DNA of 64,000 bases from NCBI GenBank assembly GCA_028279475.1, contig JANQNR010000013.1, forward strand, positions 83,524 to 147,523, in the 5' to 3' direction. Positions 38,693 to 64,000 of this stretch are shown one piece after another. The stretch comes from Rickettsiales bacterium (GTDB lineage Bacteria; Pseudomonadota; Alphaproteobacteria; Rickettsiales; UBA998). The notes under the pieces are model-generated. The model was given only the letters and a program-made list of their open reading frames with translations. It made no database searches and was not told the DNA's origin. The translations under genes were made by a program, and so were the position numbers. Numbering within the stretch: position 1 is the stretch's first letter; each line of letters starts with the position of its first letter.

Positions 38693-40351
38693 CTACACCC
38701 TGCCAACATGGCCTGATAAGGCGCTACGGAGAGTTGGCTGAGTGGTCGAAAGCGCTCCCCTGCTAAGGGAGTATATCCGAACGGGTATCGAGGGTTCGAA
38801 TCCCTCACTCTCCGCCATTTGGGATTCACCGATAAAAAAATCCTGCAAGCCGCTGAATATCATAGAGAAATTAGGGGTTCGAAACCCGTCTTTCCGGCAG
38901 TATGCCAAACGCTCCCTAAAGGCCAGTTTGAGCACGGTTCTCTTATGCTCTAATGTGCCTTCATGCCATAGTTTCTGCGGGTTTGCGAAGAATGTCATAG
39001 CGAGTTCGAACATCTCACCAAAGGGGCGGCGGTTTTGACCGATATTTTCCAGTTGTTCCTGTAATACCAGTTTTTCCCGTTCCAGCTTGTTGATCCGCGC
39101 TTCATAGGCTTTGATGACATTGGCGTTTTCAGCATCCACAATCTGATCGAGGAGCTTTTCGATGGTCTTCTGCGTGTCTTGCAGACTGGATTTAAGCGCC
39201 TGTTTTCTAGTGGCTTCATTCTCCCTTAAAATATTCCATGCCCGTTTTAGCATTGCTTGTCCCATATTTACGACGGTGGCAGATGGCCGTGCCGTTGCGA
39301 GAACCTGTTCAAACTGTGCTTCCATATCGGCACGGCGCACGGAACGCGGCGAGGCATCACACGACTTGTTGTAACAAAAATAATATGGATGCTTCTTGCC
39401 CGTCTTGCTTTTCGACCAGCAGGCGGTCATCGGATGACCGCAATTGGCACATTCAACAAAACCCCGCAGTGGAAAATCTGCATCAATATCAGACCGTACC
39501 GCCACTTTCGGCTTACCGTTCAGGCGCTCTTGAATTTTTTCAAAGGTCTCAAAGCTGATTAAACCTTCATGTTTTCCTTTGGTCAATGGAATGTCCCATT
39601 TTTTCACCTCAACATATCCTGCATACATGACACGGGTGAGAATACGATTTGCTGCTTCAATGGTGACCGTGCCAAAGCGCGTTTTGGGAAATTCAGGCTG
39701 TTTCTCCAAAAACCGCGCCACTTCCGCCTGTGTCTGAAAACGTCCGCAAGCATAACTTTCTAAGGCTTCCCTAATAATGGACGCCAGAGGTTCATCCGGT
39801 ACCATCACTTTACCATGACCCTGAATACGTTCATGCTTATAGCCAAGACTGGCAGGAAACGGCCAGTACCCTGCAATGAGTCTAGCTTGCTGACGCTTTT
39901 TGGTTTGTTCTGCATTCTTCTCGCGGTGATGCATGGCACTCAATGCCTGCATATTCTCAAAGTAGCGTCCATCGGCATCGATACCAAAGGTCATAGCAGG
40001 ACTTTCCAGCACTGCGCCGCAACTGTCTATCGCGTCCCGTAGATCGAGATGAACGCGAATATCACGCGCAAGCCTTGAGATGTCATCGACAATGACCACA
40101 TGGCGTTTCTGTTTGTTGCTCTTGAGATAGTCCAGCATCTCAAGAATACCGTCACGGTCGGCTTTACTCCCTGAAATACCGGAATCCTTAAACACATGAT
40201 GAACGTCATAGCCCTTGTAATCCGCATATTGCTTGCAATAGGTTGCTTGTGACTCGTTCCCCATTCCGGCTTTTAATTGCGCCTGTGACGACACGCGCGC
40301 ATAAATAACGGCATCGGTCAGGTCGTGGTGGTTTTGTCCAAATTCAAGCAT
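38693..40351 (-). CDS. Large serine recombinase (resolvase domain, recombinase domain, zinc ribbon), C-terminus antisense to tRNA-Ser
   Basis: AVIYARVSSQAQLKAGMGNESQATYCKQYADYKGY; GISGSKADRDG; VVIVDDISRLARDIRVHLDLRDAI; CANCGHPMTACWSKSKTGKKHPYYFCYNKSC. Confidence 0.93.
   Translation of the reverse strand: MLEFGQNHHDLTDAVIYARVSSQAQLKAGMGNESQATYCKQYADYKGYDVHHVFKDSGISGSKADRDGILEMLDYLKSNKQKRHVVIVDDISRLARDIRVHLDLRDAIDSCGAVLESPAMTFGIDADGRYFENMQALSAMHHREKNAEQTKKRQQARLIAGYWPFPASLGYKHERIQGHGKVMVPDEPLASIIREALESYACGRFQTQAEVARFLEKQPEFPKTRFGTVTIEAANRILTRVMYAGYVEVKKWDIPLTKGKHEGLISFETFEKIQERLNGKPKVAVRSDIDADFPLRGFVECANCGHPMTACWSKSKTGKKHPYYFCYNKSCDASPRSVRRADMEAQFEQVLATARPSATVVNMGQAMLKRAWNILRENEATRKQALKSSLQDTQKTIEKLLDQIVDAENANVIKAYEARINKLEREKLVLQEQLENIGQNRRPFGEMFELAMTFFANPQKLWHEGTLEHKRTVLKLAFRERLAYCRKDGFRTPNFSMIFSGLQDFFIGESQMAESEGFEPSIPVRIYSLSRGALSTTQPTLRSALSGHVGRV
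38728..38817 (+). tRNA. tRNA-Ser (anticodon GCT), CCA encoded
   Basis: GGAGAGTTGGCTGAGTGGTCGAAAGCGCTCCCCTGCTAAGGGAGTATATCCGAACGGGTATCGAGGGTTCGAATCCCTCACTCTCCGCCA: class II tRNA with long variable arm. Confidence 0.96.
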
Positions 40352-41748: not shown

Positions 41749-42055
41749 AAAACTTTCTCTGATTGGCCGGACTCATCATCATCAGAAGTGGGCAGCCGAT
41801 GGCGTAGAGTCCGTCATGATGGATGAGACCGCGATTGCCGAGATAGACACAGCTTTGATATGATGGCTTATCCTGAAGACGGATGTGCGGCACGTCATCG
41901 AGCAATGCGTAGGCGATGATGGCGAGCAATTTCCAATTGCTGAGCAGATGCGCCAGCAATCGCAGCAGCCTTGCTGTGCGGAGCATCCAGCGAATACGGG
42001 TGATGGCGTTCATCTGCGCCCCCGTTTTAGCCCATAACGCAGTCGCACCCACCAT
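41741..42055 (-). CDS. Hypothetical protein (104 aa)
   Basis: ORF overlapping flanking co-directional genes. Confidence 0.45.
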   Translation of the reverse strand: MVGATALWAKTGAQMNAITRIRWMLRTARLLRLLAHLLSNWKLLAIIAYALLDDVPHIRLQDKPSYQSCVYLGNRGLIHHDGLYAIGCPLLMMMSPANQRKFYE

Positions 42056-43920
42056 GGTGCACGTCTTGTGCCAAGCCGCAGCGTGATCGGTAAACGATAC
42101 GGTGTGTTATAAAACGGATTATCCGCCACAACGTCACGCCACGGATCAATCGCGGCGTAAGATGGTAAATCCGTCAGCACAGGGCGATTATTGCGGATGA
42201 AGGTGATGGTTTTGGAGCAACGGCGGATTTCATCTTGCGTCAGTAGCGGGCGGGACTGTTCCTGCAAATTCTGCCCCTGCATGGTGAAGCCATGAAAGGC
42301 AGCATTATGGTGTTGCGCGATATAGGCGTGCTGACCGAGCATTTTCTCAATCAGTTCCAGCATTTCAGGGTCACGCTGATGCGGCAGGAAACTCACCACA
42401 TCAGACTGGCCGAGGAACGTGCCGACCGATTCCTTGCCGTATACCTCGCGACAGGCGCTAATCGACTGTATATACAGGATAAGATAAATCGAGAACTCTC
42501 TTGCCCACGTAAAAAATTGCGGCAATTGATAGATTTCCGCATTTAACGCCTCGTCCCCGACATAATAGACGGGCACATGCTTGTTCGCATGGCGCTTCCA
42601 TTCGGTCTGGGCGGCAGATTGGAGCGCCGCCATGATTTTTTCACCTTGACCCATGCGGCTGGAATCCAGCATCAGGATCACGGCAACGGGCTTGCCGTCC
42701 TGTCGTTTCATATCCCCGAAGCGGAAGGTGGCGTGTGACAATGCCGCATGGGACTTACTCACCGCGCTAAATGGCTTTAGCGCATTATACGCACCTTTTA
42801 AAAAGCTGGTGGCCATGTTGCTTTGATCGTTCATCGTCAATTGTTTGGCCAACTCGCCGCAGCGTGTGCGGAATTCGGTAATGAACGCATCGCGTTCCGC
42901 TTGCGGGTGGTGATGCAGTAACGGTGCACGTTCCAACGGCATCGATGCGACGGGGTGCTGGTTTTCATCCACCAGACCGCCGGAGACCCAGAGCATGTCT
43001 TTGAGCAGCGCGTCACGGTTCAGGATCAAGAGCCGCGTATCGGACAAGGTCGCGTATTCGCCTTTGACCAGAATGACCATCAAGCCCGCCAGTTCCAACA
43101 CCTCACGGCTGCCTTCATCCCAGAAGTCCTGATTATTATTGGCCGTTGCACCTTTCTGTTTAGGGTGGAGTTGCAGGATCAGCTCATGCATCCCTGTCAC
43201 CGCATCGGCCAGTGATCCACGCAAAAAGTCATCGATGATGATTTGCAGCAGATTATAGCTGGCGGCATGGTTGCCAATGATGTCGGTTTGCAGCCCGCCA
43301 ATATTGACGACATGAATATCATAGCCACGTGCTTGCAGATACGGGATGACCATCGCCGCGATATTCGGTTTGAAGTCGTTGATGAGCATACTGTGACCCG
43401 CATTCGCCAATGATAAGATCATCGGAATCACACTGCCTACGCCCTTACCGGCTCCGGCTGTGCCGAAGCAGAGGAAATTGGTGAAGTCGGTGAAGATCGG
43501 CGTGCCGCGATGCCTCCGGCCTTTGCCAGCATAGATGCCAAAATATCCCGCCCAGCCATAGCGGTAGCAGGCATGTTTAATGTCCTTCCACAAGGCAAAT
43601 CGTGCATCGGATTGATAGCCGCGTACAATCAGAGCGCTACGATATTCCAGCCATCCGGCCAGTCGTTCACAGAGCCGCGCCGAGAGCATCACCAGATTAG
43701 CCGCACAGATTCCTGCCGCCAGCGCAGGCCACGGATGGATCATCCGCCCCTCCATCACCATCGGCACATCCCCAAGCGGCGTGGGCAGCGTCGCAGGTGC
43801 AATCTCACAGAGCACCCATGCACTCGCCACAGCCAATGCCGCATGACCGAAGACACTGCTCTTCGGCTGTGCTGAAGGTTGAGGATGAAACGGCGCACTC
43901 ATATACGCCTCATCCGCCAA
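42010..43920 (-). CDS. Type IV secretion/conjugation coupling protein (VirD4/TraD-like ATPase)
   Basis: FLCFGTAGAGKGVGSVIPMILSLANAGHSMLINDFKPN (Walker A); VAVILMLDSSRMGQGEKIMAALQSAAQTEW; YYVGDEALNAEIYQLPQFFTWAREFSIYLILYIQSISACREVYG. Confidence 0.88.
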   Translation of the reverse strand: MADEAYMSAPFHPQPSAQPKSSVFGHAALAVASAWVLCEIAPATLPTPLGDVPMVMEGRMIHPWPALAAGICAANLVMLSARLCERLAGWLEYRSALIVRGYQSDARFALWKDIKHACYRYGWAGYFGIYAGKGRRHRGTPIFTDFTNFLCFGTAGAGKGVGSVIPMILSLANAGHSMLINDFKPNIAAMVIPYLQARGYDIHVVNIGGLQTDIIGNHAASYNLLQIIIDDFLRGSLADAVTGMHELILQLHPKQKGATANNNQDFWDEGSREVLELAGLMVILVKGEYATLSDTRLLILNRDALLKDMLWVSGGLVDENQHPVASMPLERAPLLHHHPQAERDAFITEFRTRCGELAKQLTMNDQSNMATSFLKGAYNALKPFSAVSKSHAALSHATFRFGDMKRQDGKPVAVILMLDSSRMGQGEKIMAALQSAAQTEWKRHANKHVPVYYVGDEALNAEIYQLPQFFTWAREFSIYLILYIQSISACREVYGKESVGTFLGQSDVVSFLPHQRDPEMLELIEKMLGQHAYIAQHHNAAFHGFTMQGQNLQEQSRPLLTQDEIRRCSKTITFIRNNRPVLTDLPSYAAIDPWRDVVADNPFYNTPYRLPITLRLGTRRAPWWVRLRYGLKRGRR

Positions 43921-49425: not shown

Positions 49426-50931
49426 CTAGGAGTTCTCCTTGTCGAAACGACTTTTGATCTTTTCCAACAGAAACTGGCTTATTGGATTAGGGGATTTGCT
49501 TTCTGCTATATCCTTTGATGGCAGTAATTTATCTGCTGGGTTAAACGCCAGTTGCTCTAAAACCAATGCCGCAATTTCTTGCTCATAATCAGATGCTTGT
49601 TTCTTAAATCCATCAACTGACGCTGCCATAGAATACTTGTATGCGTAGTGTTCCCGCAATCTAAACAATGATGAATGTCGAATTGCAGAAAAGGAGACAA
49701 ACCATGCGGCAGGAACGAGAATCACCAAACGTGCGATAACCTGCCCCAGATATTGCCAGCCTGTTTGCTGACTATTGGCACCAAATTGCTTAGAAAAATC
49801 TACAAGATGTGGGTAGCTGTCCTGTAAGAATGGAGCTATTACAGGAAAAATAATAAATGCCAATAACGGCAGAGAAGATACAAACAAAAATGCAATGCCC
49901 CAGTAAAACATTTTCCTAGCACCCTTCATGTCCTTTGATGTATCAGTCATCAGAGTGTGAAAATTAACCGCTAGTCCGGTCGTAGTAGCAGAAGACAGCA
50001 TATCTTCTGACTGTTTTATCAGGGATTCTATAGATTCTCTTTGAGCTTCGAAATCGCTAATCAACTCAGTTAAGTTCTGAGTGCCAGCGACAAAGGTTTT
50101 CTCCCTGTCATCAAGCTGTTTCTGGAACTTATTGAAATTGTCCTGATAGGCATCAATCGTAGCTTTCAGTTCTTGTGATTTTGCATGAACGGCCTCAACA
50201 TCACTGGTCTTTGTAGTAATCTCTGCCAGATACTCACTGGCCGTCTTCCGGTCATTAGCTGTTTCCTGTTGAAATCTGCCTGTTTCGTTTGCAGACTCTT
50301 CCACATTTTTTTGTATGTCACCTAACCTGTTTTCAATATCCTGCGCTCTTTTCTTGGAAGCTCGTAATTCACTGTAGGTTTTCTCGATCCTCGCAATAGC
50401 TCCAGACAAGCTGGAAATTGTAGCAGTATAATTTTCTCCCTTCTCCGGGAACATAAAAGGAATGATAGGAATCACCTGGTCAAACAGCGTATAGATACTG
50501 TCTACCAACTGATGGAATACATTTCTGACATCAACTTTATTGCCATTTTTTCCGGCAAGGTGAAAATTGTCATAGTTGAAAGATTGTATTCCTGCATTCT
50601 GTTGAGACACCTGCCTTACATGCTGCTGCACCTGTTCCGCTTTGACCTTAAAATTACTACTTTGATTCAGTAGAGTATCGACTCTTCCGCGCGATAAGAG
50701 ATGTAAATCTGACTGCTCTCCTATTGAATCAAAATAGGCAACTACCAGCTCAGCTATAGCAATCACATCAGCAACTGATATGTCTCTTCCTGATATTGTC
50801 CTATCCAACTCGAAGGTGTGCCCATCACTGAAGGATGTAAATTCCTCACAGAATGATTGAATAGCAGCAATACCATTGCCGATATTTTCTGACGCTTGCT
50901 GTATCATGCTAAAATAATTTTCAACATTCAT
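49426..50931 (-). CDS. Coiled-coil protein with two C-terminal TM segments (501 aa)
   Basis: Long heptad-rich region, then MFYWGIAFLFVSSLPLLAFIIFPVIAPFL and YLGQVIARLVILVPAAWFVSF. Confidence 0.75.
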   Translation of the reverse strand: MNVENYFSMIQQASENIGNGIAAIQSFCEEFTSFSDGHTFELDRTISGRDISVADVIAIAELVVAYFDSIGEQSDLHLLSRGRVDTLLNQSSNFKVKAEQVQQHVRQVSQQNAGIQSFNYDNFHLAGKNGNKVDVRNVFHQLVDSIYTLFDQVIPIIPFMFPEKGENYTATISSLSGAIARIEKTYSELRASKKRAQDIENRLGDIQKNVEESANETGRFQQETANDRKTASEYLAEITTKTSDVEAVHAKSQELKATIDAYQDNFNKFQKQLDDREKTFVAGTQNLTELISDFEAQRESIESLIKQSEDMLSSATTTGLAVNFHTLMTDTSKDMKGARKMFYWGIAFLFVSSLPLLAFIIFPVIAPFLQDSYPHLVDFSKQFGANSQQTGWQYLGQVIARLVILVPAAWFVSFSAIRHSSLFRLREHYAYKYSMAASVDGFKKQASDYEQEIAALVLEQLAFNPADKLLPSKDIAESKSPNPISQFLLEKIKSRFDKENS

Positions 50932-51557: not shown

Positions 51558-52346
51558 TTATGTTTGAATTAAGCTTTCAACCCAATGAATATCACGCTGT
51601 CCCATGATTATATTTCTAGCAAATGATGATAATTCTGCTTCTTCTGACATTGCATTCTTGAGATCACGCACATGGGTATAGTAACTCTCATCTAATTCAT
51701 TATCACCCATATCAACACGATCATATATTCGATCTGCCGCCTTAATTTTATTCACTAGCTCGATAGCTAGTTTTTTCCTTTTTTCAAGCAGATCAGAATG
51801 ATTCAGGTGGTAGAGTTGAATAGAGGTCTCAGCACGCGTTTTTCGTCGTTCATGATCTGGGTATCTAGCTGTTGCCTGTCCAGTATCTCCCAAAAAATCG
51901 AGAAGCGCAGGATCATGAGCACAACACGGGTCTAGTAAGTGGGGATGCTCATTATTTTCTTCACCTTCCGCAGTAGCTCGGTTAGTTTCATCAAATAAAG
52001 GAAAGAGGTCTCCTTTTCCACCTGTAACACCTGTTTTCTTGTCATGCCTTCTACTATTGCAGTAGGTACATGCATATCGAAAATTATTGGCTGTGAATGC
52101 CAACCATTTATACAAAGATTTTGGTCTAAAATGATCGACTACATTATCTGAGCGTTCTTGCTTGATTTCACAATACCAGCATTTGTCGTGTGATATTTGA
52201 GCAAGAATATCTTTATAATCTCTCCATAAATTGCCGTAGGAATTTACATCTGCGTTATTGTTCAGTACGTCATTTTTTGCAGTAGCAGAATTATTATCCC
52301 AGTCAGCATCAGGTCTATTAAGAAAACGGTTGTCAATAAATCTCAT
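51558..52346 (-). CDS. HNH endonuclease, PtuB (Septu)-like
   Basis: KCWYCEIKQERSDNVVDHFRPKSLYKWLAFTANNFRYACTYCNSRRHDKKT; translationally coupled to the AAA ATPase by a 4-nt overlap. Confidence 0.85.
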   Translation of the reverse strand: MRFIDNRFLNRPDADWDNNSATAKNDVLNNNADVNSYGNLWRDYKDILAQISHDKCWYCEIKQERSDNVVDHFRPKSLYKWLAFTANNFRYACTYCNSRRHDKKTGVTGGKGDLFPLFDETNRATAEGEENNEHPHLLDPCCAHDPALLDFLGDTGQATARYPDHERRKTRAETSIQLYHLNHSDLLEKRKKLAIELVNKIKAADRIYDRVDMGDNELDESYYTHVRDLKNAMSEEAELSSFARNIIMGQRDIHWVESLIQT

Positions 52347-53995
52347 GAATTTCCCTTTGACGTTGCTTCTGTTAATGCCTTTTCAATAAGGCGTTTAGCT
52401 CGCGTCTTTGGGTCTTCTGCGGCACCCACTATTTTTGCCTTTCCATCAACTGACTCTGTTTCGCTTGCGTACCGAGCTTTCAAATATTCCGTATATACGG
52501 GGTCACGCATCTCATATTTAAAGCCGTAATCTTCTAACTCAGCATTTAGCTCGCCTAGTCGAGCTCTTTGTTCATCTGTCAAATTTTCTTGCATAGATAA
52601 TTTGCGCTTTTCTTCCAAGAGTTCTAGCGTATGACTGTCAACAGCAGCATCTAGACCAAAAAGATTGCTCGTGATCACACCAGCATATCCCATGCCACGA
52701 GGATGAATATCTGGTGCCTGTGATGAAACCTTGAGATCATCTTTGTCACGAACGAGAATCTGTACCTGCTCTTTGAGCAGTTCTGCAACTGCAAGAGGAT
52801 TATGTGTAGTCAAAACCACGTGACTTGTTTCATCTCCGGCATTACCAACAAAATCTTTTAGGTAATTCAAATAATCAACACTCCAGCGAGGATTTAGGTG
52901 TGTGTCAGGCTCATCAAGAAGAAATAATGCCTCATCTTCAGCACTGAAGCGCATTAGTCCTAGCACAGTAAGTAGTTGTTGCTCACCTTCACTTAGTTCT
53001 CGGAAAGTAACAGTGCCATCATTCTTCTTCAGCTTAACCTTGATTCTCACTTCATCAATTAGTTGAGAGACATACGTGCTTTCTAGATCACGAAAAAATT
53101 CAGCTGGCGTTTGTTCGCCAACGAGCTGTTTTAGAGCCTGCATATCTTTCACGTATAAATATTTGAATTGCAGAGTCTTGTTATTCCATAAAGAGACAGG
53201 AACTTTTCGTGTAACCTCAATAGGAGCCAGTGCAACATCATACAGCTTAGACAGAAATTTGCTGACTACTCCTCTGGCATTCCAAAATCGAGGATCACCA
53301 TCTTGAGCATTTGTTTTCCACGGTGGCTGTCGTAGGACAAAAAGAACGGATTCTAAACCATCTTCAGGGTCTAACCCCAAATGCTCTTTGAGAAATTTCT
53401 CTACATCATCATTTTGGTGAATTAGAAATGCGAGCAAAACGAACTGGCTATGAACAGGCAGTGCATAGAATAGCCTTTTAAGACCTGGGTCTTTACCTCC
53501 ACGTAGTTGGCTGTCATACCATTCAAGGTATGGTTCAAAGACATCGTGCATTCTTGGGCTTTCTCCCGAATAGTAGCTAAAAACATAGCGGGGAAGATAC
53601 TTTTCATTCTTTAAGAAAGCTCCAAGCCTTACAACTTCACCTGTATTTCCCTCAATTAAATCAGTGTTGTCCGTATCTGATACGTGAATCAAGAATGGTT
53701 CTGTTATTCTGTCAGGATCATGATCTATATGTACGTGATTGAGGTTAGGTGCAGAACCAATGCGATAGGAAAGCTGGAAGGCAAAATCTATTTTGGGCGA
53801 TTTCTTGGGGCTTATAAGCTCTCTGAAGATAATTGCTAATGCCTCCAGAACATTTGACTTACCCGTTCCATTCCAGCCAATAACTACCGTTACCCAATGA
53901 TCTTGGTCAAAATCAATTGTAACATCTTTGAGGTTTTTAAATTGATGGCTAGGACTATCTTTAGGGCTACCGATCGTAAGTTTTTCTAATCGCAT
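52343..53995 (-). CDS. ABC-type AAA ATPase, PtuA (Septu)-like
   Basis: Walker A IGWNGTGKSNVLEAL; signature FRELSEGEQQLLTVLGL; Walker B EALFLLDEPDTHLNP; VVLTTHNPLAVAELL. Confidence 0.88.
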   Translation of the reverse strand: MRLEKLTIGSPKDSPSHQFKNLKDVTIDFDQDHWVTVVIGWNGTGKSNVLEALAIIFRELISPKKSPKIDFAFQLSYRIGSAPNLNHVHIDHDPDRITEPFLIHVSDTDNTDLIEGNTGEVVRLGAFLKNEKYLPRYVFSYYSGESPRMHDVFEPYLEWYDSQLRGGKDPGLKRLFYALPVHSQFVLLAFLIHQNDDVEKFLKEHLGLDPEDGLESVLFVLRQPPWKTNAQDGDPRFWNARGVVSKFLSKLYDVALAPIEVTRKVPVSLWNNKTLQFKYLYVKDMQALKQLVGEQTPAEFFRDLESTYVSQLIDEVRIKVKLKKNDGTVTFRELSEGEQQLLTVLGLMRFSAEDEALFLLDEPDTHLNPRWSVDYLNYLKDFVGNAGDETSHVVLTTHNPLAVAELLKEQVQILVRDKDDLKVSSQAPDIHPRGMGYAGVITSNLFGLDAAVDSHTLELLEEKRKLSMQENLTDEQRARLGELNAELEDYGFKYEMRDPVYTEYLKARYASETESVDGKAKIVGAAEDPKTRAKRLIEKALTEATSKGNS

Positions 53996-53996
53996 A

Positions 53997-55709
53997 TTAG
54001 CCTGCCTTTTTTAATTTTATGCGATCAAATTGCTTCATTCCGTTTGAGTCGTAGGTGGTGTCAATTGCCAGTTTTCCTAGTTTATCAAGGTGACGTAACT
54101 CAGCATAAAGAGTTTCAATTTCTTCTGTTAGCGAACCGTTACCAATACCGCAAAGCTCAAAAACTTCTTGAGCAGATAGCCATTCTTGCTTTTCTGAGAG
54201 TACGTCTTGAAGCTTCTTAATCATGTGCTTACTCTTTGGTTTGTTATTCGATCTTTTCACTTTTAAATCCTCCAATATAACACGACTTAATTTTAGATTA
54301 TGGACTTGAAGTTCTTTCTCTTCTTTGATTTTTTGAAGGAGAATTGACGCTGCTTCATCCTTTGGGTCTTGTGGAACTAGTTCGCCACCAAAAGCCTTTT
54401 GCAGGATGCTTTGTAAAATCTTATCAATTCTTTCAAAAGCCGAGGCATATTTTTCTTCTATTTGATCTGCAACTGCAAAAAGCGGAAGTGTTCTTTCGAC
54501 GATAATCTCTTGCTCTTTTAAGGAGCAGAACGGGATCGGCATCTTTCCCAGTTTCTTGGCATTTATATTGGACTGACTAACCCCATCTGTTTTTACTCTC
54601 CAACAATAATCTTTGGCAAAAGAGGTATTAAGGCATATATTCAAGTATTCTGGATTCAAATACTCTGGAGGAGATATTTTGATCAAATATCCTGCATAAA
54701 TTGCTTCGTACTCCCCTCTGTAGATAGCAGTTTTTCCAACTAGCTCAGGGCTATTAGTTCTATTGAAAAGCACGTCCCCGGAACTCAGTTTATACTTTTC
54801 TATTTCATGTTTGTCTGATGTATAAACAAGATCATCCCAATTTATTATACCGCCTTGTATGTTACCCATTCTTAACACTGGTATCCGACCGTGTTTTTTA
54901 GATTTTTTTGAAGTTCCATAGGTAAACGTAGAACAGAGTTTATCCAAATTTAAAACCACCCAGTTATCGGGTAACTCGATGTCTAAGAACGTATCTTTTT
55001 CAGCGAATGTTTCTTTAAAGCCCTTCTCTTTTTGACGCACATGGTAAGCCATTTCTATTAACGCTTGGGTTTCTGGTAAATGGTTTGAATTTCTCCAAGA
55101 ACTAGAAAAAAGTCCTTTTGCAGCCGAATCATATACTGACTGTCGAAATTTCTTAAGGATATGAGGAATCTTATCAAGACGTTTTTGTATGCTGTTAATC
55201 TCAGCCATAATTTGGTCTAATTTACCAACGATCCTTGTTTGTTCGTTCATGGGCGGTAAAGGAATGCTCTGAAGACGAACTTGAGAGTCTTTTACGGCAG
55301 GATAACTTACTCCATATTGTTCACTGGATATGGCATCAACGAAATTATCGCTTATACAATAATAGTATAAATAACGCGGCTCTATCAAACTCACTGGGCG
55401 CAAAACAGAAAAGCCTGTAGATGCGATTTCTCCATCTAATTCTTTTGGTACAGCAGCAATATTACGCAAATATGGCCTGACAGTTGAGAACAAAATGTCG
55501 TTTTCTTTTACTATCTGGCGTGCCCGAGATGGTGCATTTGCCAAACTTAAGGTTTTTGCATCTACAACTGTGTTAGTTTGGTTATCAATGCTAGATATAT
55601 CAATATATTTTATGTGCCTATCTGATTCAGATTTTAAATTTATTTTGGAGATAGGAAGGGTTAATTCGCCAATAAATGTTTTTTTCCATCCCTCTGGTAA
55701 TTTGCTCAT
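53997..55709 (-). CDS. hsdS: Type I restriction-modification specificity subunit HsdS, with extra C-terminal region
   Basis: Two TRD halves: LPEGWKKTFIGELTLPISK...IPLPPMNEQTRIVGKLDQIMAEI and ELPDNWVVLNLDKLCSTFTYGTSKKSKKHGRIPVLRMGNIQGG...CSLKEQEIIVERTLPLFAVAD. Confidence 0.93.
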   Translation of the reverse strand: MSKLPEGWKKTFIGELTLPISKINLKSESDRHIKYIDISSIDNQTNTVVDAKTLSLANAPSRARQIVKENDILFSTVRPYLRNIAAVPKELDGEIASTGFSVLRPVSLIEPRYLYYYCISDNFVDAISSEQYGVSYPAVKDSQVRLQSIPLPPMNEQTRIVGKLDQIMAEINSIQKRLDKIPHILKKFRQSVYDSAAKGLFSSSWRNSNHLPETQALIEMAYHVRQKEKGFKETFAEKDTFLDIELPDNWVVLNLDKLCSTFTYGTSKKSKKHGRIPVLRMGNIQGGIINWDDLVYTSDKHEIEKYKLSSGDVLFNRTNSPELVGKTAIYRGEYEAIYAGYLIKISPPEYLNPEYLNICLNTSFAKDYCWRVKTDGVSQSNINAKKLGKMPIPFCSLKEQEIIVERTLPLFAVADQIEEKYASAFERIDKILQSILQKAFGGELVPQDPKDEAASILLQKIKEEKELQVHNLKLSRVILEDLKVKRSNNKPKSKHMIKKLQDVLSEKQEWLSAQEVFELCGIGNGSLTEEIETLYAELRHLDKLGKLAIDTTYDSNGMKQFDRIKLKKAG

Positions 55710-57103
55710 GCAGCCTCCTCTGAAGCAAGAAGTTCAAGAATATTGTGCAAATCTTCCACTGCTCCAGTGAGTTCTGTTATCGCTGTAGAAGCCAATTCTT
55801 CTGGTTCGGGAAGATTCTTATTTGAATCCATTTGCTTATCTTTTAGCCAACTTATATCTAAGCTATCATCACGTGCAGCAATGAGCTCACGGGAGAAAGA
55901 ACGGAAACGTCCTTGTTTGCCCTCATCTTTACGTTTTGAGACGCCACAAGGGTCATTGCCGTAGGCTTTGATAAAATCTGCAAAGTAATCAAGTGTGAAT
56001 GGGGTGCGTTTGCCAAATTGCGGCATATTGGTACGCATATCATAAATCCAAACATTTTCTGTCTTTACACCTTCAGTGAAAAACAAAACATTAGTCTTCA
56101 CTCCTTGGCTATAGAAAATGCCCGTAGGTAATCTCAAAAGAGTGTGTAGATTACATTTATCCATCAATTCTTGTCGTATGGCTTTGCCAGCACCATCTTC
56201 GAACAAAACATTATCGGGCAGAACGACAGCAGCACGACCACCAGACTCCAAACCAAGATATATATGTTGAAGGAAAGCTAACTGCTTGTTGCTAGTGACA
56301 TGTTTAATATCCTTGCGCTTCATACGAGCACTCCCAGCTTTTGCACCAAATGGTGGGTTAGCTAGAATCAAGTCAGCAAGTGAAAGCTCTTTTGCATCTT
56401 CGGTTAATGCATCTCCCAATATAATTTTAGCATCAAGCTGGTGTAAAAATGCATTCATCAAGCAAATACGGTATGTGCCTTTCTCAATTTCAACCCCTTC
56501 ATACTTAGGAGGGTTTTTCTTATATGCTTGAGAAGAATTATTGGTGCGGACAAAGTGATCTGCCGAGATTAAAAATCCTCCGCTACCCGTTGCAGGATCT
56601 TGAATAGTTTCCCCTAATTTTGGTTGCATTAGCTGGATGATGCATTCCACAAGTGCGCGAGGTGTAAAATACTGCCCTGCACCTGACCGCGCATCTTGTG
56701 AATTTTTTGCTAATAATCCCTCATACAAATCGCCCATACCATCTGAAGTGATTGAGTGCCAATCAATCTCAGCAATGCCATCAATAACAGCCTTTAAGTT
56801 CTCGGAGTGAGAAAATACAGTTGTTGGAAATGCATAAATCTTTTTAATTTCTGGCTTCCCAGCATGTTCACCAAGATATGTAAGCATTTCACGATAAAAA
56901 CTCAGAAGGTTATCTCCCTCAAAGTCAACAAGGTCTTTCCAACGGTGATTTTCTGGTAAGAGATGCTCTGTTTCTGTTTCTTCAGCGATTTTGAGAAATA
57001 AAAGATAAGTCAGTTCTGAAATATATTGGTGATAACTTATTCCATCTCCGCGCAAAACATTACATAGGTTCCATATTTTCTGGATGATATTTTTATTATT
57101 CAT
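55706..57103 (-). CDS. hsdM: Type I restriction-modification methyltransferase subunit HsdM
   Basis: GAGQYFTPRALVECIIQLMQPKLGETIQDPATGSGGFLISADHF; LADLILANPPFG. Confidence 0.95.
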   Translation of the reverse strand: MNNKNIIQKIWNLCNVLRGDGISYHQYISELTYLLFLKIAEETETEHLLPENHRWKDLVDFEGDNLLSFYREMLTYLGEHAGKPEIKKIYAFPTTVFSHSENLKAVIDGIAEIDWHSITSDGMGDLYEGLLAKNSQDARSGAGQYFTPRALVECIIQLMQPKLGETIQDPATGSGGFLISADHFVRTNNSSQAYKKNPPKYEGVEIEKGTYRICLMNAFLHQLDAKIILGDALTEDAKELSLADLILANPPFGAKAGSARMKRKDIKHVTSNKQLAFLQHIYLGLESGGRAAVVLPDNVLFEDGAGKAIRQELMDKCNLHTLLRLPTGIFYSQGVKTNVLFFTEGVKTENVWIYDMRTNMPQFGKRTPFTLDYFADFIKAYGNDPCGVSKRKDEGKQGRFRSFSRELIAARDDSLDISWLKDKQMDSNKNLPEPEELASTAITELTGAVEDLHNILELLASEEAA

Positions 57104-58650
57104 GCGATTACCTTTGGTGTTTGTTTTTTGCTGCCTACCAATTCACCAATAAACTGCGTGAACGGTACGATATTTTGCCTGACACTGGCCTGTTCCAAGG
57201 CAGTCATGTATTCCTGCCGTTTGTCTACGGGAACAACCGTCCACGGGTAGCCACCGGAGGCGAGCATAGCATTCATCAGGAAGCGCCCGATACGGCCATT
57301 GCCATCCGAATACGGGTGGATGTATACGAATACGAAATGCCCCAGCACCACACGCACAGCAGGCTCAGTTTCTTCTTCCAGAAGCTCAAATAAATTTGGC
57401 ATTACATCGCGTACCACCTCATGATTAGGTGGCACATGCATGGAACGACGGATATAGACAGGGTTGTTACGATACCCCGCTAAATCCGCAGGGCTAAGCA
57501 AGCCCGCTGTCACACTTGGTGCGAAAAGCTCTCGATACCATGTCCCATGATCTTTTTCAGCCACGATACCTGCATTTTTGCCAGATAATATCTGTTCAAT
57601 GCTGCTTTGCACGACTTGGAATGCCTGCCAATAACCACGTGCAGCCAGCGCGTTACGTTGCTCTCTATCTTCCGTATGAGCCTCAGGATTCCAGTTGCCA
57701 GTACGAACACGCTCAATCAATTCCGGCGTCACTTGATACCCCTCTATAGACAAAGAGTTATAGGCATCATTCACGTATGCTTCTTCTACCTGTTTCATGT
57801 AGTTTTTTGGATTGAGTACAGTCTTTGGGGATTCAGGAAAATACTTTAAGACAGGCTCACGCATCTTTTCCCACATTAAACGGATACGATTGACGTATGG
57901 TGATATGTCACGGCGCGCTAACGTAATGACGTTTTTATCTTCAAACGGATCAATTTCGCGGATATTGTACCCTGCGGAGGTCATGGCGTTGATAATATCA
58001 TCAGCAATACGCTCTCGCCCAATATTGCGGAATGCTCCGGCCAGCCTTCCGGCGATAGTGCTATGTCCGCCCTCCAATAGCAAGGCAAGTAGACTGGAAG
58101 CATCTGGCAACATAGAAAGTGCCGCTCGTGCATCTGTAGCATGTTGTGTAAAGAAATTAGCAGAGCAAGCAATTAAAGCGCTTTCTAACGAGAATAAGCG
58201 TATACCGTTTTTTACATCAACACTGGCCTCATTAGGTGGCATATTGTGCCTTACATCTAGTATGGATGTATTATGGGGGAATTGTGTCACCTTATTACGC
58301 GCTTTTGGAGAGCGAACAAGTAGCTGATTCGGCACTGACCAATTACCGCTATGTGACAACAATGACTGTTCGGGAGAAAGGCTCCATTCTTCACCAAACC
58401 GCTCTTCAAAATACCGCGTACAGAATCCCCAGAATGAGGCATACCAAGCTGTGCTCTCTCCTCGCACTTCATCTGGACGTGAAGGGATATACCACCCTTT
58501 AATAACCTCCTGCAAAAAGCCATTGGCGAGTAATCGCTCTCGATCTGTACGGGTAAGGTCTTTAGAGCGAATGGCAGAAAAACCCATTTCATATTGCAGT
58601 TTTTGCAATCGCTCCAGTGATTCAGCAAGTTTTTCAGATGGGGTTGGCAT
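57100..58650 (-). CDS. Fic family protein with N-terminal AbiEi/wHTH-like region
   Basis: Fic motif VYIHPYSDGNGRIGRFLMNAML; inhibitory-helix-like NSLSIEGYQVT; N-terminal RERLLANGFLQEVIKGWYIPSRPDE. Confidence 0.92.
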   Translation of the reverse strand: MPTPSEKLAESLERLQKLQYEMGFSAIRSKDLTRTDRERLLANGFLQEVIKGWYIPSRPDEVRGESTAWYASFWGFCTRYFEERFGEEWSLSPEQSLLSHSGNWSVPNQLLVRSPKARNKVTQFPHNTSILDVRHNMPPNEASVDVKNGIRLFSLESALIACSANFFTQHATDARAALSMLPDASSLLALLLEGGHSTIAGRLAGAFRNIGRERIADDIINAMTSAGYNIREIDPFEDKNVITLARRDISPYVNRIRLMWEKMREPVLKYFPESPKTVLNPKNYMKQVEEAYVNDAYNSLSIEGYQVTPELIERVRTGNWNPEAHTEDREQRNALAARGYWQAFQVVQSSIEQILSGKNAGIVAEKDHGTWYRELFAPSVTAGLLSPADLAGYRNNPVYIRRSMHVPPNHEVVRDVMPNLFELLEEETEPAVRVVLGHFVFVYIHPYSDGNGRIGRFLMNAMLASGGYPWTVVPVDKRQEYMTALEQASVRQNIVPFTQFIGELVGSKKQTPKVIA

Positions 58651-58952
58651 AGTAATTCATTGTAGCTTTTTATGACAATCTATTTATAGCTTATTGCGTT
58701 GTATCATTTATAGCTTATTACGTCAACATCAATCACAAGAAATGATCTTATTAGCAGCAAAAATAACATGAAAAGAAGGATTCATATTTCTTTCATCTAA
58801 CTTAGGGCGCTGCCCTCGGCGCACTGCGAGTAAAATAGATCGCATTCATCCCCACTTTTTCGGCTCCCCCTAAAGGTTATCCCCCAAAAAAGAGGCGCTG
58901 CCTGCGCCGATTTTCCTGCTCCGTTTGCACACCCGCTGTTCGCCACGAGGCA

Positions 58953-58991
58953 GGGTTACAAGCGAACCCCATAGGGTTTGCGTTGCAACCC
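58953..58991. promoter_or_regulatory. Inverted repeat upstream of ardA (leader hairpin)
   Basis: GGGTTACAAGCGAACCC-CATAG-GGTTTGCGTTGCAACCC. Confidence 0.6.
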
Positions 58992-59012
58992 AACTTAACG
59001 GGAGTGAAAGAC

Positions 59013-59519
59013 ATGACACAGTTTTACGCACAGCCCTACGACATCAGTGCAATGGGGTTTTATTTTGAGGACATGCAGGAATATGACGCTAAATACACCA
59101 CCTGCAAAAATGACTTTGGTGGTCAGGTCGAAGAGTTTGAAATTCAGTTTATTGACGGTGATTCCATTGATTCAGAGCTTTTTAAGGCGTTTGGTATTCA
59201 TCAGGGCAATATTCATCAGTTCATCGAAAAAATTGACGAATGGGACGAACAGGAAAAGCAAATCCTGATTATTGCCGTGGGTGAAGGTGGCTATAAGTTT
59301 GACCTTGCCAAAGATAGTCCAGACGATTTTGACGTGGACATATACCACACAGACAGCATGCGCGAACTGGCCATGCAGTTTGTCGATGAAGGATTATTCG
59401 GTGAGATTCCAGATAATATCCAATACTACCTCGATTATGACGCAATAGCGCGAGATTTAGCCGTGGATTACTCCGAAATACGTATTGCTGGCGAAAACAT
59501 CATTTATCGCTGCTCATAG
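59013..59519 (+). CDS. ArdA-family antirestriction protein
   Basis: FYAQPYDISAMGFYFEDMQEYDAKYTTCKNDFGGQVEEFEIQFIDGD; acidic; YYLDYDAIARDLAVDYSE. Confidence 0.88.
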   Translation: MTQFYAQPYDISAMGFYFEDMQEYDAKYTTCKNDFGGQVEEFEIQFIDGDSIDSELFKAFGIHQGNIHQFIEKIDEWDEQEKQILIIAVGEGGYKFDLAKDSPDDFDVDIYHTDSMRELAMQFVDEGLFGEIPDNIQYYLDYDAIARDLAVDYSEIRIAGENIIYRCS

Positions 59520-60194: not shown

Positions 60195-61895
60195 ATGAGC
60201 AAAAAAATCAGTGGTGCAGAATACCAGCTTTCAAAAATTTTCAGTTCTGATTTTGAGTATCATATTCCCTCGTATCAACGGCCTTATGCTTGGGCAGTGG
60301 ATCAAGCCTCTGAGCTTTTTGATGACTTGTACGATTTTTACACGACAGAAACCGATGAAGGCTATTTTCTTGGAAGCATTGTACTGATTAAAGAAGATGG
60401 CCATCCCCGTGCCGAGGTAATTGATGGTCAGCAACGCCTGACAACTTTAACAATCCTGTTAGCAACGTTGGCTTCTCAAGTGACTGGAGAGCAGCGGGAG
60501 ATGTTGTACAAATATATAGTTGAACCCGGAAATGAATTTGAGGGGTTAGAGCCAAAGCCAAGGCTGACCATTAGGGATCGGGATAAGGCTTTTTTTGCTG
60601 AATATGTCCAGAAACTTGATTTTGAGGGCCTGCTTAAGCTGAATTCAGAACATCTTGCCAATGAGTCACAGGCCAACATTCAGGCGAATAGTAAATACTT
60701 TTTGAATGTCATTCACAAAACTTTTGATGGCGACATACAACGCATAAAAGGCTTTGTGACATTCATTGTTCAGCGATGCTTTTTGGTTGCCGTTTCCACG
60801 CCTACCCAACAGTCGGCTTTCCGAGTTTTTTCAGTGATGAACAGCAGAGGACTCGATTTGCAGCCCACGGACATCATTAAAGCCGATGTTATCGGCCAAA
60901 TTTCCTCAGAAACAAAACGTGAGGATTATAATGAACGGTGGGAAGAAATGGAAATTGAGTTGGGTAGAAGCGAATTCAACGAGCTTTTCTCATTTATCCG
61001 CATGATATACGCAAAAGAAAAAGCCCGAAAATCTGTGCTGGAGGAATTTAGAAACCATGTGGTGGCTAAGATCAACAGCCCTGAGAGGCTTATTAGCGAG
61101 GTACTCGAACCATATTCAGATGCTCTTTCGATTATCAAAAAGGCCAATTACTTGTCTGCTTCGGATGCAACAACCATCAACTCGTATTTTAGATGGTTGA
61201 ATCGGATTGACAATTCAGACTGGATTCCCGTAGCAATCCTGTTTTTGTCGCAGCAGAAAAACGATTCTGATTATGTTTTATGGTTCTTCAAAAAACTGGA
61301 AAGGCTGGCAGCTTACCTGCATATATGCGGAAAAAATGTCAATCATAGGATTGAAAGATACAGCGAAGTGATTTCCAGTATTCAGGATCATCAGCATAGC
61401 TTGGAAAACCCTGTTGATACAGTTGAACTAACGGAAGAAGAAGCAGAGGAAATGCTGGATGCGCTGAATGGCGATATATATGCCCTTCCCCCACGGAAAC
61501 GTAATTACGTCATTCTCAGGCTGGATGCCTTCTTATCTGATGGTGGTGCTTTATATGACCCATCTATTTTGACTATTGAACATGTTTTACCGCAGACGGT
61601 AGACCCTGAAAGCGAATGGGCTAAACTTTGGCCTGATACAAATACACGAAAAACGTGGGTTCATCGGATAGCAAATTTAGTGCCGTTGAATCGAAGAAGA
61701 AATTCTCAGGCTCAGAATTATGATTTTGAAAAGAAAAAATCTGCTTATTTCAGCGGCAAGAAGCAAGTTTCTTCATACGTGCTTACAACTCAGGTGCTTA
61801 ACAAGCCAACATGGACAGAGGAAACATTAGAAGAGCGGCAAAATGAGTTGATGGGAGTTATGGCCGAAAACTGGAGCCTTAAAGAGGCGGCATAA
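60195..61895 (+). CDS. DUF262/DUF1524 protein (GmrSD-like restriction/defence family)
   Basis: IPSYQRPYAWAVDQASELFDDL; GSIVLIKEDGHPRAEVIDGQQRLTTLTILL (DGQQR); DPSILTIEHVLPQ (HNH-type DUF1524). Confidence 0.9.
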   Translation: MSKKISGAEYQLSKIFSSDFEYHIPSYQRPYAWAVDQASELFDDLYDFYTTETDEGYFLGSIVLIKEDGHPRAEVIDGQQRLTTLTILLATLASQVTGEQREMLYKYIVEPGNEFEGLEPKPRLTIRDRDKAFFAEYVQKLDFEGLLKLNSEHLANESQANIQANSKYFLNVIHKTFDGDIQRIKGFVTFIVQRCFLVAVSTPTQQSAFRVFSVMNSRGLDLQPTDIIKADVIGQISSETKREDYNERWEEMEIELGRSEFNELFSFIRMIYAKEKARKSVLEEFRNHVVAKINSPERLISEVLEPYSDALSIIKKANYLSASDATTINSYFRWLNRIDNSDWIPVAILFLSQQKNDSDYVLWFFKKLERLAAYLHICGKNVNHRIERYSEVISSIQDHQHSLENPVDTVELTEEEAEEMLDALNGDIYALPPRKRNYVILRLDAFLSDGGALYDPSILTIEHVLPQTVDPESEWAKLWPDTNTRKTWVHRIANLVPLNRRRNSQAQNYDFEKKKSAYFSGKKQVSSYVLTTQVLNKPTWTEETLEERQNELMGVMAENWSLKEAA

Positions 61896-61923: not shown

Positions 61924-64000
61924 CTACCGTTCCAGCTTACGGCTATTGTCCGGCTGCGCTGTTGGTTCAATTCCATGCTGCGCTTCTGCCATATCGGCTT
62001 TTTGCATGAATTCTTCTCGCAGTTTGACGAATTCCTGTTGATCCAAGCTGCGGGTGGGCGTGTGGCTCTCTGCTTTCCGATCAAGCTCAGACGTTTCAAT
62101 CCAGCGGCCTGAGAATTGATGTTCAGGTTTTGGTGGCTCCTGTTGGCCTTGATCCTGCCTATGCATAAAGAAGGATTTGATGCGTTGGAATAAAGACGGA
62201 TAGGCTTCTTGCGCTGGCTCAGCTTCACTATGCCGCCCTCGCGCATCGGTGAAGTCCAGTGTCGAGAGCTTTTCACCTTGCCTGCCAAGCGATGAATGCA
62301 GCCGTGTATCGGTTTTGAAGTCTTTGCGGTTAGCATAGAGCTTTACAGCCTCTTTATGGCGTGACAGCGCCACATAGCTGGTATGCTGGTCAAAATGCGG
62401 GGTGGCCAGTACGAACGCCTGATCTACCGTTACACCCTGCGATTTATGCACCGTGGCGGCATAGCCAAGCTGGAAATGGCTGTATTCGGCAGGCGAGAAA
62501 GAGACTGTTTGGCCGCTATCCAGCGTGACCTTGAATATGCCGCCATCTACGGATTTTAATGTGCCGAACGACCCGTTCATCACGCCCATGTCACGGTTAT
62601 TCTCACGGAAGAGGATACGATCACCTACGGCGAAATCTTGCATTTCCTGCCGATCATGGTCAGCTTCTTTGACCGTGACAGGCACGGTGACGTTTTCTGT
62701 TGCCACTTTACCCACCTTGACCATTTCCGCCTTTATCATGGCATTGAGGTCAGCCACGTCTTTGCGCGTATAGGCCAATACCAGACGGGTGGCATCGGGT
62801 GAGGCTTTCTGCGCCCTCATGACATCGGCTACCAGTTTGGCTTTTGCATAATCACGGCTTTTGGCCTGCACAATGCAGCCATGATTTTGATAGGCTTTCA
62901 GGGCTTCCGTTACATTTCCTTTGGAAAGCGTAATTGTGGCTTCGCGTTGCCATTCTGTTTTCTGGCGGCGTACTTCGGTGAGGGAGGCGGAGTCATTGCG
63001 TTCCAATAAGGTACGAAACGCCGCGCCAGCTTCTACGCTCTGCAACTGCGCCGGATCACCAACCAAGACCAGCTTTGCCCCTGATTGCTTGGTGAGTTCG
63101 ATGATATGGGCGAGTTGCTTGGCCGACACCATACCCGCTTCATCGACAATCAGTACGTCTTTGCTGGTCAGCATGGCATTCTTGACAAAGGCCGCCTGTT
63201 TCGGTGTTAGCGGTTTTCCAGCATGTTCATCCAGCATCTTCTGCGCCAGTTGGATACGATATTGCAGGCTGTGTAAGGTGCCGGCATTCATGCCGATTTC
63301 ACGCAAACCACTGGCTGCTACACCCGATGGGGCAGCGCCGCGTACACGGTAGCCCTGTGATTCCAGTGCTTCCTTTGCACCGTCCATAATGGTGGTTTTG
63401 CCAGCGCCGGCCATGCCAACCACCAGCGATAATTGCTTATCACCGGCCATATGTTGTAAGGCTTGCTTCTGCTCATGGCTTAGGCTGGCTTTGCCTTCTG
63501 TTGCCTTGGCCAGCTTGTTGTTCAGGTTGAAGATAGCACGCTGCACAGCATGAGCATCTACCTTATGCGAGGTAGTATTAGCCATCGCCTGCGCGTTGTC
63601 TGCCATGCGTTGTTCCAACTCCAGCATGGCTTGTGTGGTATAAACGGGCTTTCCTTTATGCTCGCCAATACGGACAACATCAGGCGATTGTACTATGTCC
63701 TGCATCGCCGCATGCCGCTCCAGCTTGTCTTTAATGACAGGTTTGAGTGTTCGCTCCATCATCGCAGGCGTAAAGGCGGAATGATAACGCTCTACCTGTG
63801 CCAGTGCTTTTTCAGCGTCATAGGCGGGCTTTGCCTCATGCTCTAGTGCCAGCCGATCCAGAATATCTGAGACACTTGGTAAATCAGCTTCATCGCCCAA
63901 CTTGGCGCGAAATTCTTTTACGCGTAATTCAACTTGCTGACGCAGCGGGTATACCTCGCCATGCACATCCACCAGCACAAAGCGTCCACGATCTCCACGC
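61924..64000 (-). CDS. TraA-type conjugative relaxase/helicase, C-terminal part (runs off right edge)
   Basis: LSLVVGMAGAGKTTIMDGAKEALESQGYRVRGAAPSGVAA; VLIVDEAGMVSAKQLAHIIELTKQSGAKLVLVGDPAQLQSVEAGAAFR; GYAATVHKSQGVTVDQAFVLA; frame open to 64000. Confidence 0.9.
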   Translation of the reverse strand, partial: RGDRGRFVLVDVHGEVYPLRQQVELRVKEFRAKLGDEADLPSVSDILDRLALEHEAKPAYDAEKALAQVERYHSAFTPAMMERTLKPVIKDKLERHAAMQDIVQSPDVVRIGEHKGKPVYTTQAMLELEQRMADNAQAMANTTSHKVDAHAVQRAIFNLNNKLAKATEGKASLSHEQKQALQHMAGDKQLSLVVGMAGAGKTTIMDGAKEALESQGYRVRGAAPSGVAASGLREIGMNAGTLHSLQYRIQLAQKMLDEHAGKPLTPKQAAFVKNAMLTSKDVLIVDEAGMVSAKQLAHIIELTKQSGAKLVLVGDPAQLQSVEAGAAFRTLLERNDSASLTEVRRQKTEWQREATITLSKGNVTEALKAYQNHGCIVQAKSRDYAKAKLVADVMRAQKASPDATRLVLAYTRKDVADLNAMIKAEMVKVGKVATENVTVPVTVKEADHDRQEMQDFAVGDRILFRENNRDMGVMNGSFGTLKSVDGGIFKVTLDSGQTVSFSPAEYSHFQLGYAATVHKSQGVTVDQAFVLATPHFDQHTSYVALSRHKEAVKLYANRKDFKTDTRLHSSLGRQGEKLSTLDFTDARGRHSEAEPAQEAYPSLFQRIKSFFMHRQDQGQQEPPKPEHQFSGRWIETSELDRKAESHTPTRSLDQQEFVKLREEFMQKADMAEAQHGIEPTAQPDNSRKLER

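Follow-up and report, generated by a model that had tools for sequence, protein, structure and literature searches.

A 64,000-nt stretch of contig JANQNR010000013.1 from a Rickettsiales bacterium (hereafter the window, in which all coordinates are positions unless the locus of a relative is named) carries on its minus strand a type I methyltransferase gene pair, hsdM and hsdS, followed directly by genes for a PtuA-like ATPase and a PtuB-like HNH nuclease. The evidence supports this combination of HsdMS with a PtuAB-like pair as a recurrent and strictly linked unit, and we propose, at about even odds, that HsdM-HsdS-PtuA-PtuB may constitute a four-gene immune system in which HsdMS would serve as the self/non-self sensor gating the PtuAB effector.

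Organization and recurrence of the four-gene unit

The hsdM gene (55706..57103, minus strand) encodes a 465-aa type I N6-adenine methyltransferase subunit with intact motif I (DPATGSGG) and motif IV (NPPF), and hsdS (53997..55709, minus strand) encodes a 570-aa specificity subunit with two target recognition domains and an extra C-terminal tail. They are followed by the ptuA-like gene (52343..53995, minus strand), whose 550-aa product is an ABC/OLD-type ATPase, and by the ptuB-like gene (51558..52346, minus strand), whose 262-aa product is an HNH nuclease. The initial annotation had described these four genes and an upstream fic gene as five packed minus-strand open reading frames (ORFs) at 51558-58650, and the ORF coordinates agree with it in every position, in the 4-nt overlaps at 57100-57103, 55706-55709 and 52343-52346 and in the 1-nt gap at 53996 between hsdS and ptuA. 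Its assignment of the products to Fic, HsdM, HsdS, PtuA-like and PtuB-like proteins is likewise upheld by Pfam (Fic, E = 1e-12; N6_Mtase, 2e-71; Methylase_S, 9e-24; AAA_21, 9e-21; HNH, 2e-5), PADLOC (MTase_I, 1e-193; Specificity_I, 3e-104; PtuA1, 8e-239; PtuB1, 6e-91) and NCBIfam, and for PtuB also by structure. Besides NPPF, catalytic motifs are intact throughout the operon, including Walker A (GWNGTGKSN), LSEGEQQ, LLDEPDTHL, DHFRPK...CNSRR and the Fic motif HPYSDGNGRIGR.

The AlphaFold model of PtuB reached a predicted local distance difference test (pLDDT) score of 95, and all 11 of its PDB fold matches at E <= 0.001 were chains of PtuA-PtuB complexes, from retron Ec78, retron Ec83, retron I-A and E. 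coli Septu (8eea) only. By sequence, PtuA is weakly related to the PtuA proteins of known structure from retrons Ec78/Ec83 and from Septu, and the features expected of a Septu member are present, namely a PtuA with Walker A/B and signature motifs and an adjoining HNH PtuB of the same fold. The cut-offs of the NCBI retron-type PtuA and PtuB equivalog models were missed (52.7 of 500 and 52 of 150 bits). Regarding a complete type I restriction-modification (RM) system, the HsdM motifs and both HsdS recognition domains (two Methylase_S stretches in Pfam) were found, and HsdR was not.

A PtuA alignment was searched against ~85,000 species genomes and yielded 454 relatives, the best 80 of which were used here. 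Writing M, S, A, B and R for HsdM, HsdS, PtuA, PtuB and HsdR, the linkage of HsdMS with an ATPase and an HNH nuclease noted in the window recurs in other genomes: hsdS, ptuA, ptuB and hsdM occur together in all 80 relatives except for loci truncated by a contig end, and the arrangement is thus not a product of chance. A PtuAB pair without M and S was seen among these 80 only where a contig end cuts the locus. The S-A-B genes are contiguous in 79/79 testable loci (within 60 nt of each other in 77 and within 100 nt in the remaining two), and hsdM lies either upstream of S (M-S-A-B) or downstream of B (S-A-B-M). Plasmid copies were present in Pseudoalteromonas donghaensis, Pantoea eucalypti, Vibrio vulnificus, Roseomonas haemaphysalidis and Pseudoalteromonas KG3, and the same S-A-B and M linkage is found in the six nearest IMG/VR relatives, which come from a separate scan and form an independent set. 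A search of a phage collection gave one weak match (24%).

HsdR as an optional partner

As the initial annotation stated, the 64-kb window contains no HsdR. HsdR was also looked for elsewhere in the source genome (1.98 Mb, 19 contigs, ~100% complete), where three domain models, HSDR_N, EcoEI_R_C and SWI2_SNF2, gave zero matches; in 14 control genomes the same models matched 9, 4 and 10, respectively. One other N6_Mtase match, a weak one, is present in this genome on a different contig.

Among the 80 relatives, HsdR is full-length in 40, cut by a contig end in 4, split by a frameshift in 2 and represented by remnants only in 2, and it is absent from 23 loci with good flanks and 9 with short flanks. 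It is of two types, one of ~940 aa encoded upstream of S and one of ~1150 aa upstream of M, and Pfam domains confirmed one example of each. When the presence of R was mapped on the PtuA tree, 21-22 changes were needed, at least 17 of which are imposed by branches with strong support. Because HsdR has been gained or lost at least 17 to 22 times, M-S-A-B can be regarded as the core and HsdR as optional. Some R-less loci form clades (e.g., L051/L078/L055/L053/L065), and the three models found no HsdR domain genome-wide in seven R-less relatives (L051, L065, L071, L073, L078, L090 and L091; completeness not given). A concealed HsdR in R-less loci was rejected on the basis of the large ORFs scanned, which were other genes or had no Pfam match, and an HsdR on a separate contig of L031 was rejected as cognate because it has its own M and S.

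The suggestion that PtuAB acts in place of HsdR stands in part. R-less units are common, stable and under purifying selection, but about 46 of 80 relatives retain HsdR beside M-S-A-B; PtuAB is therefore not a simple replacement for HsdR and is instead the constant partner.

Purifying selection and turnover of recognition domains

In pairs among the R-less loci L053, L055, L065 and L078, the ratio of nonsynonymous to synonymous substitution rates (dN/dS) was 0.04-0.06 for ptuA, 0.07-0.13 for hsdM and 0.08-0.11 for ptuB, and R-bearing pairs gave similar values; these Nei-Gojobori estimates are approximate since dS exceeds 1 in some pairs. NPPF, the Walker A lysine, the Walker B DE and the HNH histidine with its following asparagine are conserved in 73/73 proteins. 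M, A and B in R-less lineages are under strong purifying selection.

These data bear on the idea that the locus is a decaying type I RM system, from which HsdR was lost and whose remaining genes are on their way out. Genuine HsdR remnants do occur in relatives, beside intact hsdS-ptuA-ptuB-hsdM in each case: an internally deleted 242-aa ORF (L025:7519-8244), a 132-aa C-terminal piece (L058:7858-8253) and a weak 64-aa piece (L049:8000-8191), which appear to be cases of HsdR loss caught midway. However, R-less clades combine low dN/dS on M, A and B with intact motifs, and the window shows no HsdR remnant, its ORFs being intact and overlapping, which makes decay very improbable here.

Most neighbouring pairs of loci are ~80-95% identical in M and A and only ~39-51% in the whole of HsdS. 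The difference lies in the recognition-domain windows, mostly 10-37% identical, as compared with ~50-90% for the HsdS centre and tail; even in example neighbours with 88-90% identity in M and 92-95% in A, R-less ones included, the recognition domains were mostly 10-37% identical. The pair L055/L078, with similar recognition domains, is an exception. Divergent recognition domains on an otherwise conserved background are the usual mark of RM systems switching specificity. HsdS recognition domains turn over in R-less as in R-bearing lineages.

The C-terminal tail of HsdS and its coevolution with PtuA

The window HsdS is ~100 residues longer than a normal HsdS. In its AlphaFold (AF2) model (pLDDT 88.5), the main body is a standard HsdS of two domains, with 5ybb_D as the best PDB match (E = 5e-28). 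Beyond it, a long helix and a flexible linker lead to a small winged-helix-type domain of HHH-EE topology, which weakly matches winged-helix regulators. This winged-helix-like tail (53997..54221, minus strand; about residues 497-570) is a candidate dock for PtuA. It is conserved in 82 aligned HsdS proteins of the family and is not a common feature of HsdS, an option that was ruled out because only 3 of 399 genomes of the phylum encode a tailed HsdS whereas 203 encode an HsdS. PtuA of this clade (>500 bits) was found in exactly those 3/399 genomes, adjoining the tailed HsdS. Weaker matches of the tail profile look like IHF-alpha and Fur (L109-L135); they fall in the N-terminal region of these proteins and probably reflect shared helical geometry.

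Coevolution was examined by pairwise distances over 77 loci. Tail and PtuA distances were correlated at r = 0.84, and still at 0.84 given M, while the correlation of the tail with M given A and B was 0.05; the tail-PtuA pattern held in R-less (0.77) and R-bearing (0.90) subsets. M was correlated with the HsdS centre (0.70) and, in R-bearing loci, with R (0.90), and recognition domains correlated with other parts at about 0. There are thus two coevolving modules, one of R, M and the HsdS centre and the other of the tail and PtuA. On the simplest reading, HsdS would be a bridge between them, with its tail as the PtuA dock.

The same observations weigh on the possibility that a plain Septu pair merely sits beside an orphan type I methyltransferase, the two being joined only through the habit of defence genes to cluster in islands. 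PADLOC labels the pair PtuA1/PtuB1, i.e., Septu, and Septu functions with PtuAB alone (PMC13096335). On the other hand, the invariant S-A-B contiguity, the restriction of the tail to this PtuA clade, the tail-PtuA covariation and the missed NCBI retron-type cut-offs all argue against this, and we consider independent neighbours unlikely.

Possible mechanism

In the proposed four-gene system, HsdMS would methylate a bipartite site on host DNA, as expected from its family, and the flexible winged-helix tail of HsdS may dock PtuA, as coevolution and fold suggest. An encounter of HsdMS with unmethylated sites on incoming DNA could throw the ATPase switch of PtuA, and the HNH site of PtuB would then cut DNA or tRNA, by analogy with characterized PtuAB. 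HsdR, where present, would be an optional add-on for ordinary cleavage, which this locus lacks. The best reading of the genes is that HsdS may act as an adapter coupling methylation-based recognition to PtuAB, which takes the slot of PrrC in R-S-PrrC-M operons. In its specific form, HsdR-free and methylation-guided immunity, with HsdMS sensing unmethylated sites, the HsdS adapter switching on PtuA-PtuB and an outcome that is possibly tRNA-cutting and abortive, this is a tentative proposal that falls short of even odds.

PrrC itself suggests a different arrangement, in which HsdMS (with HsdR where present) silences PtuAB, an anti-restriction protein of a phage or plasmid that neutralizes the complex releases it, probably onto tRNA, and R-less HsdMS serves as bait. 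PrrC, an ABC-ATPase tRNase, is kept silent by the linked type I RM enzyme and freed by T4 Stp (PMC2610378, PMC12707154); one tested PrrC operon (PrrC170) comprises HsdR, HsdS, PrrC and HsdM (PMC11555353), and PtuAB takes the same slot in R-S-A-B-M loci. PtuAB of retron-Eco7 depletes tRNA-Tyr (PMC11555353), as does that of Septu EcB88, which cleaves tRNA-Tyr and needs both its Walker and HNH residues (PMC13096335). The PrrC precedent favours guarding. However, bait needs no turnover of recognition domains, yet R-less HsdS proteins vary as much as R-bearing ones, which favours direct sensing; HsdM catalytic motifs are fully retained in R-less forms, and the adjoining ArdA gene (58983) might be expected to trigger PtuAB. 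We regard guarding as rather doubtful.

Several points tell against direct sensing by a dedicated four-gene system. The 80 loci were picked by similarity to seeds that were already M-S-A-B systems, and PtuAB may normally back up HsdR, since over half of the relatives retain it. The turnover of recognition domains could be neutral recombination, and the tail-PtuA correlation could stem from physical linkage, the tail being encoded beside ptuA, rather than from contact. PtuB distances, which are near saturation, correlate with those of PtuA at only r = 0.36, and in two more distant IMG/VR relatives with S-A-B, L151 and L152, the tail was undetected by this model.

Comparison with known systems

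Like Septu, the family has an ABC-type ATPase with an adjoining HNH protein, matches PADLOC PtuA1/PtuB1 models over nearly full length and has a PtuB fold resembling 8eea; in contrast to Septu, it is always tied to hsdM/hsdS with a winged-helix-tailed HsdS, and the window sequences are far from the NCBI retron-Ec78 PtuA/PtuB models. Type I-A retrons (Ec78/Eco7 and Ec83) also have a PtuAB effector gated by a partner module, there reverse transcriptase-msDNA, whereas a type I methyltransferase would take that gating role here and no reverse transcriptase was identified among the operon genes. In contrast to the tRNA-Tyr depletion by PtuAB of retron-Eco7, action on DNA was reported for Septu of E. 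coli ATCC25922, and tRNA is likely not the target of retron-Eco4 (PMC11555353).

EcoprrI, a type Ic RM system with PrrC, shares an ABC-ATPase nuclease within the hsd operon and the R-S-X-M order common to many relatives, but the window family has a two-gene HNH effector instead of the single PrrC protein, often lacks HsdR and has a distinct HsdS tail. A PrrC family protein with its own anticodon nuclease (ACNase) domain was not found, the best families being PtuA/AAA_21 and HNH. Type I RM systems share the HsdM/HsdS methylase, the two recognition domains and their turnover, and HsdR in over half of the relatives; the window locus differs in lacking HsdR and in having PtuAB and the HsdS tail.

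Loci with a TIGR04435 'restriction system-associated AAA family ATPase' also have an ABC ATPase in hsd operons (Sphingobium L020:4692-6308 and Kovacikia L138), but they are distant (~100-140 bits against the window family), both contain HsdR, and the window protein stays below the cut-off of that model (144 of 300 bits). The Sphingobium HsdS carries a C-terminal extension of another kind, and the ATPase of Kovacikia is followed by an HNH-like protein; a TIGR04435-type sister design may exist. MADS combines HsdM-like MAD2, HsdS-like MAD5 and the AAA ATPase MAD3 in one system, but the window proteins are far under the curated MADS cut-offs (85/720, 56/400 and 27/420 bits).

Fic and the genomic neighbourhood

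The fic gene (57100..58650, minus strand) encodes 516 aa, of which the N-terminal ~240 have no assigned family; this region had no Pfam match even at E 10, and its candidacy as a known DNA-binding domain was dropped on that ground. The slot before hsdM holds Fic proteins of other families in L017, L094 and L096, Abi_2 in L019, DUF6471 in L093 and, judged by eye, a VapC-like protein in L087, and no gene in other relatives. In the Fic of L017 (L017:3558-4670, on a Vibrio plasmid), the catalytic motif is degenerate (HPFYYGNGCTSR). Members of the window's Fic family are frequent on plasmids, and four relatives that were inspected are solitary, without annotated RM neighbours. The proposal that Fic serves as a second effector or regulator is not supported, as Fic adjoins the unit in few loci, with differing families, and its inspected relatives are solitary plasmid genes; the varied genes in the slot rule it out as a core component. 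Fic shares the operon yet is a rare and exchangeable neighbour outside the conserved system, and it appears to be independently mobile.

About 30 nt upstream of the fic start lie two direct repeats ATTTATAGCTTATTRCGT (58682..58723; 18 nt each, 24 nt apart), which are possibly operator-like. Divergent from fic is an ArdA antirestriction gene (58983-59519, plus strand; PF07275, 8e-7), whose product would be expected to bind the HsdMS system it adjoins. Close to the operon lies a gene for a GmrSD-type single-chain modification-dependent restriction enzyme (60195-61895, plus strand; GmrSD_N, 2e-40; GmrSD_C, 6e-27), which with the operon appears to form a small defence cluster. On the other side, 626 nt downstream of ptuB, a 501-aa coiled-coil protein with apparent membrane segments (49426-50931, minus strand) has no convincing family match in Pfam, PADLOC or NCBIfam. 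A serine recombinase gene (38693-40351, minus strand) overlaps with its 3' end tRNA-Ser(GCT) (38728-38817, plus strand), near lpxC, and conjugation-type genes encode TraG/VirD4 (42010-43920) and a TraA-type helicase (61924-63978). Together, the recombinase/tRNA overlap and these conjugation genes resemble an end of an integrative conjugative element that bears the operon.

Significance

The pairing of ABC ATPases with nucleases in loci resembling RM systems is already known, as cited in PMC12839542. No description of HsdMS with PtuAB was found in the literature searched, which did not include Krishnan 2020 (NAR gkaa726; ABC ATPase-nuclease pairs) and Li 2024 (PtuAB structure); nor did this literature yield an account of an M-S-A-B core with optional R, of an adapter tail on HsdS or of coevolution in two modules. 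If the proposed system is real, annotation tools would be splitting one system into Septu and a partial type I RM system, and many hsdMS loci without HsdR that are taken for orphan methylases would count as complete immune systems. The question of how PtuAB is triggered outside retrons would also receive a concrete answer, and the HsdS tail would be an adapter domain open to deletion and swapping.

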